Shown piece after piece: positions 4,233-19,758 of a stretch of 39,427 bases of DNA; within the stretch, counting starts at the first letter, position 1, and every line of letters starts with the position of its first letter. The notes under the pieces were generated by a model. That model saw nothing but the letters and a program-made list of their open reading frames with translations. It was not told the origin of the DNA and did not search any database. Source of the DNA: a virus; the IMG/VR virus record IMGVR_UViG_3300025117_000143, positions 1 through 39,427 of that record. One strand, given 5' to 3'. Both the position numbers and the translations under genes were made by a program.

Positions 4233-4601
4233 ATGAGCAAAGTATCATGTTGTTGTGTTAGTCAAAAAGCAGACATATACAAGATACATCCTACTGTGCA
4301 GGAAGTTCACGAAGAAATTATTTTATATTTAAAACAATGTTGTAAATGCGAAAATCCTGTTATTGAAATAAGACGCATAGACATCTTAGGCCAGATACTA
4401 GAACCTGTTAGATTAAAGGTTAAAAACATTCAAAAGTTTTTAAGTTCAATGGTAGTAATCTGGAAGCCTAAATCAATAAGTTTTAAATCAGAAACAGGCA
4501 AAAAAAACCCATATTATTTTAATAGATACGGCCAAAAACAAAAGGGATACACCTCATTTAGTAACCTACGACTAGGGATGTACGATCCTGACCCATTCTA
4601 A
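4233..4601 (+). CDS. 122-residue hypothetical protein
   Basis: Opens MSKVSCCCVSQK with a Cys-Cys-Cys run and later has QCCKCEN, so it may bind metal or form disulphides. The C-terminal part is Lys/Tyr/Asn-rich. The start is 12 bases from GGAGGG, a little far, and the leader can fold over that site. It is followed by an intrinsic terminator. No family recognised. Confidence 0.6.
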   Translation: MSKVSCCCVSQKADIYKIHPTVQEVHEEIILYLKQCCKCENPVIEIRRIDILGQILEPVRLKVKNIQKFLSSMVVIWKPKSISFKSETGKKNPYYFNRYGQKQKGYTSFSNLRLGMYDPDPF

Positions 4602-4636
4602 AAACTCATAGAAACTCCGTTTTAAAACTATCCTAC

Positions 4637-4670
4637 AGAGAAGGGGAGAAATCCCCTCTCTCTTTTTTTT
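4637..4670 (+). terminator. Intrinsic terminator
   Basis: AGAGAAGGGGA pairs with TCCCCTCTCTC, with a short loop and one bulge, and is followed directly by eight T residues (4663-4670). Confidence 0.85.
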
Positions 4671-4684
4671 ATTTAGGAGGGGAA

Positions 4685-4834
4685 ATGATCCCAGTAATAT
4701 ATCAATCAAAGGTTAATTGGCTGGAAAATACACCAGTATTAAACAAAGACCTTTATAAACATAAAAGTTGCAGTAAAAAATATGTGCCAATTATTACACA
4801 GATAGCAGATAAAATTTATGCTCAAAAAAATTGA
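4685..4834 (+). CDS. 49-residue hypothetical protein
   Basis: ATG at 4685 follows AGGAGGGG (about 4675-4682). The product begins MIPVIYQSKVNWLEN, is basic and has a single Cys. It stands between a terminator and a 210-base non-coding gap, so it may have its own promoter, which I cannot identify. Confidence 0.5.
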   Translation: MIPVIYQSKVNWLENTPVLNKDLYKHKSCSKKYVPIITQIADKIYAQKN

Positions 4835-5044
4835 AGCAAGAATTTAACAATAAATTTAGTAAAAAGAGAAATTATATTTTCTAAGAGTTTTGGAAAATCG
4901 AAACCAATTACGAGATTAAAGCCAAAATTAAGGCTATTTAAGGCGGTTTAAAATACCTCTTAGGATATAAATAAGGAGCCTCCATTTTTAGGGGGCTTCT
5001 TCCATAATAAATATTATCGGACATAAAAAAGGAAGGTCGAGTAA
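4835..5044 (+). other. Non-coding gap with one hairpin
   Basis: AT-rich sequence without a credible gene. A hairpin (GAGCCTCC 4976-4983 with GGGGGCTTC 4991-4999, one bulge) lies near the end but lacks a T-run. GGAAGGTCGAG at 5031-5041, the ribosome-site region of the next gene, recurs upstream of the gene at 5372. Confidence 0.5.
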
Positions 5045-5272
5045 ATGAAAAAAACAACATTGAGGGCATATGGCAATATATGGGCCCTTGACTTTGATGG
5101 TCAAGAAATAACTTGCAATTCAAAGCCTACAGGTAGACAAGCAGGATTCTTAAATTATTTCGATTGCACAGAATGTAAAAATCAAGTTATTGGTGAAGAT
5201 GAGCAATGTAATCGTTTTAAAGATGTGTACGACATAACAGATACAAAAAGATATTGCAGGAACTATGAATAA
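5045..5272 (+). CDS. 75-residue Cys-containing hypothetical protein
   Basis: Cysteines occur in EITCNSK, FDCTECKNQ, EQCNRF and RYCRNYE, five in total, suggesting a small metal-binding or disulphide fold. The GGAAGG in front of the ATG is part of an AAAAGGAAGGTCGAG motif repeated before the gene at 5372. Function unknown. Confidence 0.6.
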   Translation: MKKTTLRAYGNIWALDFDGQEITCNSKPTGRQAGFLNYFDCTECKNQVIGEDEQCNRFKDVYDITDTKRYCRNYE

Positions 5273-5301
5273 GATAGCAGTATCCAACGAATAATTAAAA
5301 G

Positions 5302-5371
5302 CCATACCGGGTAACTCGACCTGCCCGGTGTGGTGAAAATAAGGTCGAGATAAAAGGAAGGTCGAGAAATT
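5302..5371 (+). promoter_or_regulatory. Predicted H-type pseudoknot leader with tandem ribosome-site motif (element A)
   Basis: A 10-bp stem (CCATACCGGG 5302-5311 with CCCGGTGTGG 5324-5333, one G-U) carries the loop sequence CTCGACCT (5315-5322). That loop is exactly complementary to AGGTCGAG at 5342-5349 and again at 5359-5366, just before the ATG at 5372. With the first copy the connecting segments are 3, 1 and 8 bases, the last A-rich, the textbook geometry of an H-type pseudoknot. Pairing with the second copy would cover the ribosome site. A third AGGTCGAG lies at 5034-5041 before the previous gene. Confidence 0.6.
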
Positions 5372-5596
5372 ATGATTAATTATGATGAAATTCAAGAAGG
5401 CGATTTTGTAAAGATAGTTAGTAGTATACCTGCTAGATTTGCTAAAGAAGGAACTGTTTGTAAGGTTGTAGAAAAAACAACTTTGCAAAATAAACCTGCT
5501 GTAAAAATACAACACCCTATATCTAAAGAAATTAACACTTTTTTTGATAACTGCGGGGCAAAAATGCTCGAAAAGTGTATGAGTTATTTAGGATAA
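5372..5596 (+). CDS. 74-residue hypothetical protein, possible SH3-like fold
   Basis: The sequence IQEGDFVKIVSSIPARFAKEGTVCKVVEK resembles small beta-barrel (SH3/KOW-like) proteins in phage accessory regions, but no family is certain. Translation probably depends on the pseudoknot leader at 5302-5371, since GGAAGG forms part of its second motif copy. Confidence 0.6.
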   Translation: MINYDEIQEGDFVKIVSSIPARFAKEGTVCKVVEKTTLQNKPAVKIQHPISKEINTFFDNCGAKMLEKCMSYLG

Positions 5597-5600
5597 AAAT

Positions 5601-5717
5601 ATGAATAGTATAGTTTTTTATTTAAAGCATACTCCTTGGGTTATACACGTAATAAATATACTTTTAATATTTGTTTTGGTATTACCGATATTATTACCCT
5701 TTATAGAGGGTAACTAA
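5601..5717 (+). CDS. 38-residue single-span membrane peptide
   Basis: Starts 4 bases after the previous stop, with GGAT in front. Residues 13-34 (WVIHVINILLIFVLVLPILL) form one transmembrane helix with a short acidic end. Function unknown; co-transcribed with the gene upstream. Confidence 0.5.
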   Translation: MNSIVFYLKHTPWVIHVINILLIFVLVLPILLPFIEGN

Positions 5718-5725
5718 CTAATTAC

Positions 5726-5787
5726 CGGAGCCACCCTCAAGGCTCCGCCCCTTTTGGGGTTAAGTTGAGGGAGAATTGAGGGAAATT
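5726..5787 (+). promoter_or_regulatory. Predicted H-type pseudoknot leader with tandem ribosome-site motif (element B)
   Basis: CGGAGCC (5726-5732) pairs with GGCTCCG (5741-5747); the loop CCCTCAA (5734-5740) is exactly complementary to TTGAGGG at 5765-5771 and at 5776-5782. The second copy contains the GAGGG ribosome site 5 bases before the ATG at 5788. Connecting segments are 1, 0 and 17 bases, ideal for an H-type pseudoknot; the 17-base segment has its own CCCCTTTTGGGG mini-hairpin. Same plan as 5302-5366 with unrelated sequence. Confidence 0.6.
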
Positions 5788-5961
5788 ATGGAAAAAGTAT
5801 TAACCTTAGAGCAGATAAAAGAAATAATAAACAATACAGATTATTGTAGTGGTTGCGATAATCGTAATCAAGAATGTGGAGAGTGTGACGTATGCATGCT
5901 TGATGACATATTAGAATGTCTTTTAAAAGCTCTTAAGCAAGCCCTCAAGGAGGGTGAATAA
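5788..5961 (+). CDS. 57-residue Cys-rich protein, possible metal binding
   Basis: The start at ATG 5788 is chosen over an upstream TTG at 5776, because the TTG is itself inside the ribosome-site motif. The product has CSGCDN, ECGECDVC and ECLL, six cysteines in about 30 residues, consistent with a small zinc-binding protein. Its translation start lies in element B. Its 3' end contains CCCTCAA (5942-5948), the same seven bases as the element B loop, next to the GGAGGG of the following gene. Confidence 0.6.
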   Translation: MEKVLTLEQIKEIINNTDYCSGCDNRNQECGECDVCMLDDILECLLKALKQALKEGE

Positions 5962-5962
5962 G

Positions 5963-6160
5963 ATGGGGATAGATTTTAATGACAATGAATTTACTAAAAT
6001 TGTTATTACAGTACAAGAAAAAATGATAAAAGAAGATCTAAAAACGTTCAATTTTACTTATAAAAATCAAAATTATAAAGCCGAGAGAAGAATAAGACAA
6101 ATTTATGATTTTAATATAACGGAAGCTGATCCGTTAACCCCGCCAGTGCAGGAGGGTTAG
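5963..6160 (+). CDS. 65-residue hypothetical protein
   Basis: Starts at ATG 5963, about 8 bases from GGAGGG; the GTG at 5954 touches the ribosome site and is less likely. CCCTC (5942-5946) can form a 5-bp triloop hairpin with GAGGG, partly hiding that site. The product is charged and helical (DNEFTKIVITVQEKMIKEDL), ending in a Pro-rich tail. No family recognised. Confidence 0.55.
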   Translation: MGIDFNDNEFTKIVITVQEKMIKEDLKTFNFTYKNQNYKAERRIRQIYDFNITEADPLTPPVQEG

Positions 6161-6164
6161 GCGG
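6135..6164 (+). promoter_or_regulatory. Alternative hairpins around the ribosome site of the gene at 6165
   Basis: TAACC (6135-6139) can pair with GGTTA (6155-6159), and CCGCC (6140-6144) with GGCGG (6160-6164). The arms cross with no linker bases, so they are best read as mutually exclusive. Both flank or include GGAGGG (6151-6156), 8 bases before the ATG at 6165. Confidence 0.35.
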
Positions 6165-6260
6165 ATGTTTATAGCTGCTATGTTATTAAGTGTTTCGTGG
6201 TTTATAATCTTGACGAGATTACATCAATGGGCAAGACATAAAAAAGAATCCACTAAATAA
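6165..6260 (+). CDS. 31-residue single-span membrane peptide
   Basis: The ATG lies 8 bases after GGAGGG. MFIAAMLLSVSWFIILTRL is a membrane helix followed by a basic tail (HQWARHKKESTK), predicting the N-terminus outside and the C-terminus in the cytoplasm. Similar in kind to the peptides at 5601 and 34789; function unknown. Confidence 0.45.
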   Translation: MFIAAMLLSVSWFIILTRLHQWARHKKESTK

Positions 6261-6724
6261 CGTACCCCTACCCCACAGCCTAATATTAACGGGGTAAAAA
6301 AGATAACAGCTATTAAAAGACTCTTTCGAATAGAAATATTCTTATTGCAACAAAACCCTATTTCATTGCAATAAGACAAAAGTTATTGCAATGGATAGAA
6401 ATAATTAGCTGATCTGCCAAGTGTAGAAACAGTAACGAGATCGTCAGAGTGGCGATCTTTGAATTAACGAATCCAGAACGCGATCTAAACAATGCGCACC
6501 AGTCTGGATATTTTAAGGAAAATCCTGATAATTGAAAGTTGGCTACACGCCACGTTGTTAGTACAGAGAATGGAAAACACTAGATTATCAGGATTCTTCC
6601 ACCCTATACTTAAAATTAAAGTACCTGTTGTTAGGGGCGTTGTTACTTATAGAACTGAAAGCAAGGCCAACGGCTAGATAACTATAGGTGGCGTTAACGC
6701 CCCACCCTATAAAGTGAGGAATGA
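6261..6724 (+). other. 464-base region rich in inverted repeats, no convincing gene
   Basis: It holds a doubled TACCCC (6263-6268, 6269-6274) that can pair with one GGGGTA (6291-6296), three related TTATTGCAA sites (6341-6393), AGATCG/CGATCT (6438-6458), a 12-bp inverted repeat AATCCTGATAAT (6521-6532) with ATTATCAGGATT (6584-6595), and an imperfect GC-rich hairpin before the next gene (about 6681-6711). The only sizeable ORF (6492-6677) lacks a ribosome site. A structured RNA or a protein-binding or origin region is possible. Confidence 0.5.
6341..6393 (+). repeat. Three alternating inverted copies of TTATTGCAA
   Basis: CTTATTGCAA (6341-6350), CATTGCAATAAG (6364-6375) and TTATTGCAATG (6383-6393). 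The middle copy can pair with the first (10 bp) or the third (11 bp), so the hairpins are mutually exclusive. At the DNA level they look like binding sites with a palindromic ATTGCAAT core. Confidence 0.75.
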
Positions 6725-6955
6725 ATGGAAAAAAAAGATTTAAAACGAGAAATAAAAGAACATAGCGATTATTTACTTGAGCAGATAAGGCTTAGGGATA
6801 AAACAATTAAAACCCTCGAAGCCGAAAACAAGAGGATGAGAGAGCATATCAAACGAGCATTAGAATTTGTCGATGATGATCCAGATAGTGATATAACCTT
6901 AGAGCAGAGAGAACAGGTTGTTTACCAGCTTAATAAAGCACTGGAGGATAAGTAA
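6725..6955 (+). CDS. 76-residue coiled-coil protein
   Basis: GTGAGGA precedes the ATG. Residues 1-50 form a charged coiled coil (LLEQIRLRDKTIKTLEAEN), then an acidic turn (DDDPDSD) and a last helix. No family recognised. The frame stays open for 35 more codons after the TAA. Confidence 0.6.
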   Translation: MEKKDLKREIKEHSDYLLEQIRLRDKTIKTLEAENKRMREHIKRALEFVDDDPDSDITLEQREQVVYQLNKALEDK

Positions 6956-7063
6956 GGTACAAAGAAACTTGATCCAATATTAGCCGAACTTTGGAAAGAT
7001 GGCGAAATATCATTATCTCAAATATTTGATCATTTAAGATTAACCACTAATACAAAAGTATAA
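6956..7063 (+). pseudogene. Open in-frame extension without a start codon
   Basis: Directly after the TAA of the preceding gene the same frame continues for 35 codons to another TAA and reads like protein (KKLDPILAELWKDGEISLS, then QIFDHLRLTT). It has no start codon of its own. It may be the tail of a once longer protein or a gene fragment; read-through is possible but has no other support. Confidence 0.3.
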
Positions 7064-7131
7064 AAAGCCTACAACCTACACATAAGATACATTATAGGAC
7101 TATAGCTATTAGAAATAGTTAGGGGTTATTT

Positions 7132-7497
7132 ATGATAGATATTACCGAAATGTTAAAAAATCGCAAAAGACGTACAGGTTATATCATCATTAATAGACCT
7201 ATAATTCTTTTTTATGAGGAGATCGGCTCAACTAAATATCAATCTTTTGATTCTGATGATCCTAAAGATACATTTGATAATGTCCTGAGCGTAAAAATAA
7301 AAGACGGCTGGATGCGTATATGTTGCATTGATGAGGTGGAAAGAGATTTATTGGAAGCTGATCTTAAAGATTGCAGGAAGCGAACTAAAATTAAGCCTGT
7401 CGGCAATGTTATTAAATTAACTAAAAATACTATAGGCCCTGGTTCAGATGTTAAAGGGCCACCGCCTAACTGTGGTTCTAATGTTCATAAGCAATAA
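7132..7497 (+). CDS. 121-residue hypothetical protein
   Basis: TAGGGGTT precedes the ATG. The first 85 residues look like a mixed beta/alpha domain (RRTGYIIINRPIILFYEE, DGWMRICCIDEVERDLLEADL), the rest a Gly/Pro/Asn-rich tail. An AGCTATT/AATAGTT hairpin with a 3-base loop lies just upstream of the ribosome site. No family recognised. Confidence 0.6.
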   Translation: MIDITEMLKNRKRRTGYIIINRPIILFYEEIGSTKYQSFDSDDPKDTFDNVLSVKIKDGWMRICCIDEVERDLLEADLKDCRKRTKIKPVGNVIKLTKNTIGPGSDVKGPPPNCGSNVHKQ

Positions 7498-18761: not shown

Positions 18762-19310
18762 ATGACATTAACAAAACAAGCAGTCGTATTGGGAATTACT
18801 GACGCCAAAATTGCCACAGTAACAACAAATTCAAGCACAACTTACGCCAAGGGTTCTTATGTAGATGCGCCCGGTATCAAAGAGGTTACAGTTTCATTAA
18901 TAGCCGATGAAAAAGAAGCCACAGGCGATGAGACAATTCTTGCTAACTTTATTCTAAAAAAAGGCTATGAGTTGAGCTTCTCCAACGCTATGGTTGATTT
19001 GACAGTTGTGTCAACAATTAACGGCTCAACCGTTGCCTCATCCGGTGGCAATGACACAGAGGTTGCAAGCTTGACCGAATTCTCAACAGATGTTCCGGTC
19101 GAATTTAACTTCCACTTTAAAACCGATTACGTTGACGGCGACACTGCAGACTTCCATATGGAATATTATGTCTGCAAAGGACACATGGATATAATTCCGA
19201 GATCTGGCGATGTTTACGAAATGAGCTTTAAAGGAAAAGCCTATTCTCGCTTATCTGATAAAGCAATAAGATGTATAACAATGAACGAAACAGTTGCAGC
19301 TATAAGTTAA
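18762..19310 (+). CDS. Major tail tube protein
   Basis: A 182-residue protein beginning MTLTKQAVVLGITDAK, beta-rich with alternating Val/Thr strands. It sits three bases after the tail terminator and before the tail chaperone, the invariable place of the tube protein in siphoviruses. AAAGGAGC precedes the ATG and a strong hairpin follows, consistent with high expression. Confidence 0.83.
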   Translation: MTLTKQAVVLGITDAKIATVTTNSSTTYAKGSYVDAPGIKEVTVSLIADEKEATGDETILANFILKKGYELSFSNAMVDLTVVSTINGSTVASSGGNDTEVASLTEFSTDVPVEFNFHFKTDYVDGDTADFHMEYYVCKGHMDIIPRSGDVYEMSFKGKAYSRLSDKAIRCITMNETVAAIS

Positions 19311-19326
19311 CCTAGTTAGAATACTA

Positions 19327-19359
19327 CAGATAGCGGGATAAAACCCGCTATCTGATTTT
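19327..19359 (+). terminator. Strong hairpin after the tail tube gene
   Basis: CAGATAGCGGG (19327-19337) pairs perfectly with CCCGCTATCTG (19344-19354), loop ATAAAA, then ATTTT. Likely an attenuator that keeps tube protein above chaperone levels. Confidence 0.75.
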
Positions 19360-19374
19360 ATTAGAAGGTGAAGA

Positions 19375-19758
19375 ATGACATACGAAGATATTAAAGAGTA
19401 TAAAGAATCTATCGTTATAGACGATAAGACTTTAACCGTTGAATATTCCAATAAATCTCTGGCATGGCTGGAAGATGCTTTGAACCTGACGTTATACGAA
19501 GTAAGGGATTTGCTTTTCGATAAAAAATTAAAAGTAAAAGATCAGGTCATTTTATTATATGCCGGACTTATAAAGCATCACCCAGAAATAAAACTGGCTG
19601 ACCTGCAAAATAGGCCTCAAATAGCTGTCTTATTAAATAATTTATCTGATTCAATAATGGATGCATTTTTCGTTCATATTATCCCGCCTGAAATTATCAG
19701 CGTAATTAAAGAGAATGAGGCAAAAGAAAACGGAAAAAAGCAGGAAGCCCAAAAATAG
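19375..19758 (+). CDS. Tail assembly chaperone, short form (gpG-like)
   Basis: A 127-residue helical protein, the unshifted product, ending KKQEAQK at a TAG. Tail chaperones coat the tape measure and recruit tube protein. Its identity follows from the position between tube and tape measure genes and from the -1 frameshift signal at its end. Confidence 0.85.
   Translation: MTYEDIKEYKESIVIDDKTLTVEYSNKSLAWLEDALNLTLYEVRDLLFDKKLKVKDQVILLYAGLIKHHPEIKLADLQNRPQIAVLLNNLSDSIMDAFFVHIIPPEIISVIKENEAKENGKKQEAQK

Follow-up and report, generated by a model that had tools for sequence, protein, structure and literature searches.

The window analysed here is the whole of a virus record of 39,427 b (35.5% GC), in which genes for a DnaD-like helicase loader, an IstB/DnaC-type ATPase, the large terminase and the portal were identified. 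Two IMG/VR contigs from the same phage aside, neither of which covers the region described below, relatives of its terminase share ~30% identity at best. Two short elements, designated A (5301-5371) and B (5726-5787), lie directly upstream of ORFs 5372 and 5788 (Table 1). In each, a hairpin (stem S1) carries a loop word complementary to two identical downstream sites (pairing S2), the second of them within ~20 nt of the start codon.

Table 1. Features of elements A and B and of the adjoining genes
Feature	Position	Strand	Remarks
GGTCGAG, third copy	5035..5041	+	ribosome site of upstream ORF 5045
Element A, hairpin	5301..5334	+	S1 13 bp (5301-5313/5322-5334), L1 = A5314, L2 = 0
Element A, loop word CTCGACC	5315..5321	+	
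Element A, target copy 1 GGTCGAG	5343..5349	+	
Element A, target copy 2 GGTCGAG	5360..5366	+	between SD (AAGGAAGG) and ATG 5372
ORF behind element A	5372..5596	+	74 aa, no relatives found
Element B, S1 5' arm CGGAGCC	5726..5732	+	read directly
Element B, linker L1	5733..5733	+	single A, read directly
Element B, loop word CCCTCAA	5734..5740	+	5' strand of S2
Element B, S1 3' arm GGCTCCG	5741..5747	+	L2 = 0
Hairpin CCCC-TTTT-GGGG	5748..5759	+	in loop L3, flush with S1
Element B, target copy 1 TTGAGGG	5765..5771	+	decoy upstream of ribosome site
Element B, target copy 2 TTGAGGG	5776..5782	+	contains SD GAGG(G), 5 nt before ATG
ORF behind element B	5788..5961	+	57 aa, Cys-rich, no relatives found

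In element B, S1 is followed by the CCCCTTTTGGGG hairpin, TTAAG, the first TTGAGGG, AGAA, the second TTGAGGG, AAATT and the ATG at 5788. The first-pass annotation of this DNA had described the stem, the loop and both TTGAGGG copies, placing the second within the ribosome site of 5788, and was correct to the base; the linkers of 1 and 0 that it gave were likewise read directly from the sequence. Because re-measurement of A gave L1 = A5314 and a 3' linker of 0, the junctions of A are those of B, and in both elements L1 = 1 and L2 = 0 exactly around a 7-bp S2.

By their scores both ORFs are coding-like in frame. For neither did PHROGs, Pfam, IMG/VR or the GenBank phages yield a relative, nor did GTDB contigs for ORF 5788, and a search covering ORFs 5045, 5372 and 5788 across IMG/VR, GTDB contigs and GenBank phages returned none. 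The target word of element A, GGTCGAG, has just three occurrences across the window (5035, 5343, 5360), every one at a ribosome site; the copy at 5035 is a possible long-range partner of the element A loop, 280 nt upstream of it.

Several other features were noted nearby. A possible ORF for a 38-aa membrane peptide (5601-5717), with a weak coding signal, ends 8 nt upstream of element B and overlaps a hairpin TTACCCT/AGGGTAA. The word CCCTCAA recurs at 5942-5948, as had been claimed, and pairs there within a hairpin of 5 bp (CCCTC-AAG-GAGGG) at the following ribosome site (5942-5954), which is an ordinary local hairpin. A further ribosome site lies within a plain hairpin at 6128-6165 (TTAACCC...GGAGGGTTA). 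Since the sites at 5942-5954 and 6128-6165 are also in hairpins, this block of the genome is rich in RNA-structured starts. Between 6240 and 6740, ~490 bp without long ORFs are strongly foldable (minimum energy -129.9) and contain 12-bp arms AATCCTGATAAT/ATTATCAGGATT, TTATTGCAATG repeats and a GGGGCGTT...AACGCCCC stem; Rfam gave no match to this region, which is possibly a structured RNA or an origin. No competing feature was seen on the minus strand.

Occurrence against chance and relation between A and B

The occurrence of A and B is not due to chance and lies far above expectation. In 322 dinucleotide shuffles of the whole window, a k=7 two-copy descriptor plus start codon matched 0.047 times per window, whereas the real window contains A, B and a single match, made of A and T only, on its minus strand. 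When the 53 gene leaders alone were shuffled 3000 times, 0.0077 elements were expected per genome; two were observed, and none of the 3000 shuffles contained two or more. Shuffling each element's own leader reproduced the arrangement in 6/20000 cases for B and in 0/20000 for A. The possibility raised in the first-pass annotation, that a shuffled-sequence control might produce such arrangements as often, thus falls away, as the 53-leader shuffles give ~0.008 per genome against the two seen.

The accompanying statement that A and B share no sequence was slightly wrong. Both end in GAAATTATG (at 5366 in A and 5782 in B), and the score of their alignment exceeds those of all 500 shuffles; after removal of the start region, 9/500 shuffles reach it. 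As residual similarity remains, A and B are perhaps old duplicates, and on this alignment their common descent is possible, if unproven.

The same plan in other phages

No homologue of the A/B locus was found in the sequence collections. Exact-word scans with the word of element B returned 20 loci, none of which was arranged in this way beside a start. A version built on AGGAGG was rejected, since forward and reversed (control) searches of 398 Bacillota genomes gave about equal numbers and 30 loci held no convincing stems. Within 1.2 Mb of terminase-related phage loci, a descriptor with GC-containing words had no match in the 609 kb of low-GC DNA. One of the terminase-related loci (L192) carries a 14-bp stem with L1 of one base, L2 of zero and two copies of ACGGAGG, of which the second serves as SD for a ParB/methyltransferase ORF. 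Four further loci with the same plan were fetched with word patterns, so that their number is no estimate of frequency: L274, at 30% GC, precedes a free-standing HNH endonuclease ORF; L137 has the CTCGACC word found in A, ahead of a putative replication gene, judged from its start; L154 and L295 precede tail-chaperone-like genes. The element of L274 lies within a more elaborate leader (5016-5132), enclosed by an outer GCATGG/CCATGC stem and accompanied by a second hairpin.

L154 led to Streptomyces phage VWB, in which the gap separating the structural protein p27 from gp45 holds a hairpin with loop GCGCGGGTC; GACCCGCGC follows twice downstream, its second copy lying between SD and ATG. Twenty junctions between major tail protein and chaperone genes were then chosen for the similarity of their proteins to the VWB tail protein, RNA playing no part in the choice. 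Tail junctions with the plan came from phages that infect Streptomyces, Arthrobacter, Microbacterium, Curtobacterium, Gordonia and Mycobacterium. Under strict limits (a word of 7 nt, S1 of at least 7, at least 2 sites, at most 1 wobble per site), 8/20 junctions passed and 0/8000 shuffles did; under a looser test, 14/20 had at least 2 sites, the shuffled-downstream controls giving 0 to 2% each. From group to group the words bear no relation to one another (CCCACGC, CCCGCGC, GACCCGCGC, AGGCCCAGCCA, AGGCYGGGTCCA, GGCCCCCG, CCCGCAC, ACCAGG), and the hairpin often has a T-rich tail. The plan was absent from two junctions of Streptococcus and Lactococcus phages, from the gapless junction of Gordonia phage Nadeem and from five Bacillota tail-tube/chaperone junctions. 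In the window itself, a gap at 19310-19375 lies between ORFs 18762 and 19375, which from gene order are probably the tail protein and the chaperone; it holds a terminator-like ATAGCGGG/CCCGCTAT hairpin and no two-copy pseudoknot.

Covariation of both stems was found in seven actinophage analogues, which are related to each other. In these, S1 has double-sided changes at 10/14 positions, and position 4 of S2 goes from T-A to C-G in concert, in the loop as in both copies; pairing is kept in 49/49 cells for copy 1 and 47/49 for copy 2. L1 lengthens with S2 (1-2 nt at 7 bp, 4 at 9 bp, 5 at 11 bp) and the 3' linker is constant at 0 or 1, which matches the expectation for coaxial H-type folding. In Soul22, Amelia and Chickaboom, wobbles occur in copy 2 beside a perfect copy 1, in agreement with a favoured first site. 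As the window locus has no homologues, this covariation belongs to the analogues; it backs the class and not element B directly.

The earlier proposal that structure rather than sequence is conserved is upheld by the same layout in A and B, by the shuffle controls and by phages that keep the plan in other letters with covariation; it slightly overstated the independence of A and B from each other in sequence. The first-pass annotation had suggested a scan of phage genomes with a structure-only descriptor; in 3.6 Mb of other phage DNA, a generic descriptor stayed near its controls, and the excess in leaders was small (8 matches, where the control searches gave 2 and 5). For this reason we make no claim that the plan is widespread; away from the window and the tail junctions it is rare.

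Folding, proposed action and alternatives

In A, B and the analogues alike, the loop is complementary to sequence 3' of the stem, and the linkers permit coaxial stacking, as in an H-type pseudoknot. The element structure is well supported, and from it we infer a rheostat function. We consider it reasonably probable (about two chances in three) that A and B are cis-acting intercistronic H-type pseudoknots with two exclusive targets, which control translation initiation at the downstream ORF. The hairpin loop would pair with one of the two identical downstream sites at a time, presumably forming a pseudoknot in either case. Pairing with copy 1 would leave the ribosome-binding site open, and is taken to be the default ON state; this copy is nearer, which should make the loop cheaper in entropy, and it would be transcribed first. 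Pairing with copy 2 would hide the SD or the SD-to-start spacer. Since the two states would be mutually exclusive, their balance would set downstream translation: relative stability, given by linker length and wobble pairs and possibly shifted by a factor, would determine output of the downstream relative to the preceding ORF, and the setting of a ratio would be the purpose of the arrangement.

Predicted energies differ between the elements. In A, S1 (-23.5) dominates over the matching nested fold (-13.4). In B, S1 is broken and copy 2 trapped in the nested minimum-energy fold (-27.8); S1 with the small hairpin reaches -20.8, and adding energies by hand, with the pseudoknot penalty assumed to be ~9.6, puts the pseudoknot at ~-30 kcal/mol, a rough value no more than comparable to that of the nested fold. 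Because these energies permit the pseudoknot and the ribosome-site-hiding nested hairpin alike, element B may be a true switch.

Element B might also be a switch without a pseudoknot, in which CTCC of the S1 3' arm pairs with GGAG beside copy 2 and hides the ribosome site. The extended complementarity of CCCTCAAGGCTCC and GGAGAATTGAGGG and the nested minimum-energy fold speak for this, yet in A the nested fold loses to S1, and the two copies and the zero linker of the analogues would be left unexplained; we regard it as decidedly improbable. Somewhat less improbable, although still unlikely, is an operator gated by a protein or ligand, where a phage or host factor represses translation in the manner of T4 gp32 or locks the OFF state as in the SAM/SAH or preQ1 riboswitches. 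Classic operators include H-type pseudoknots that cover or adjoin ribosome sites (PMC3014915, PMC7367207, PMC10931766), but the genes controlled here vary in function, no Rfam family matches, and from phage to phage the words of loop and target show no relation, so that there is no conserved sequence-specific pocket.

That the hairpin serves mainly as a terminator or 3'-end protector of the upstream gene, with the loop matches secondary, has very little to commend it, even though the hairpin directly follows the upstream stop codon, a T-rich tail is frequent at tail junctions and a stem-loop to the right of the major tail gene of cluster O mycobacteriophages has been read as a terminator (PMC4351075). 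A and B have no T-run and were not flagged as terminators, the only sites flagged being 4642-4661 and one on the minus strand, and a terminator has no need of loop-to-site complementarity in two covarying copies. Chance, or simple duplication of ribosome-site sequence, has a negligible claim. The two copies in A do lie within a 15-nt direct repeat (87% alike), and GAAATTATG occurs in both elements; duplication would account for two copies and not for a matching loop within a stem, and the shuffle controls (0.008 expected per genome against 2) already refute this explanation.

Beyond A and B themselves, a wider proposal is put forward tentatively, at somewhat less than even odds: that an RNA rheostat working without any factor arose or was retained repeatedly in tailed phages of Bacillota and Actinobacteria. 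In it, a single hairpin loop would choose between a decoy and the ribosome site by way of mutually exclusive pseudoknots and so fix protein ratios, for instance that of tail tube to tail chaperone, geometry alone being conserved. If true, this would add to phage translational control a class in which two targets compete, and an RNA explanation for the unequal amounts of tail tube and tail chaperone made from one transcript. As geometry alone is kept, sequence-based RNA discovery would overlook the plan; the anatomy of the elements provides a structure-only descriptor for finding further cases.

Comparison with known systems

Translational control by pseudoknots is already known from T4 gene 32, rpsO, the alpha operon and the SAM/SAH and preQ1 riboswitches. 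Gene 32 of T4, T2 and RB69 likewise has an H-type pseudoknot in a phage mRNA leader that affects translation of the next gene, and the NMR structure of the T2 pseudoknot has two coaxial stems (PMC3014915). That knot, however, is 67 nt upstream and serves to nucleate the binding of gp32 to UUAA(A) repeats, with no second target and no pairing to the ribosome site, whereas the targets of A and B are at the ribosome site and ORF 5788 has no PHROGs or Pfam match. In the SAM/SAH and preQ1 (types I-III) riboswitches, as proposed here, a loop pairs with an SD-bearing 3' strand in a flush coaxial knot (PMC7367207, PMC11625349); they differ in having a single target, a conserved ligand pocket and metabolic genes. 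At the Rfam gathering threshold, there was no match to these or other riboswitches, and a relaxed scan of 4550-7150 gave only three unrelated families, none over B.

The E. coli rpsO (S15) and alpha-operon (S4) operators also act on translation through a fold equilibrium at the ribosome site (PMC10931766), but have a single target and a ribosomal-protein recognition motif and are not from phages; ORF 5788 has no Pfam or PHROG match, and Rfam gave no match to such operators. Hairpins at the ribosome-binding sites of phage homing endonucleases (I-TevI, mobE, segB) are likewise translation-limiting phage RNAs, and the L274 element precedes an HNH ORF; these hairpins are plain and hold the RBS, with no decoy copy or knot (PMC3014915), and ORF 5788 is not an endonuclease according to PHROGs and Pfam. 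The GC-rich hairpin with a T run that marks an intrinsic terminator is absent from A and B. The mycobacteriophage stem-loop after the major tail gene occupies the same genomic place as the actinophage elements, and was described only as a likely terminator, complementarity of its loop to two sites being unmentioned (PMC4351075). The combination of one loop, two competing identical targets and conservation of geometry only was not found in Rfam or in the literature searched, mostly that outside subscription journals. Set beside these systems, A, B and their analogues look like an undescribed RNA device that tunes translation of the next gene and recurs in phages of very different bacteria.
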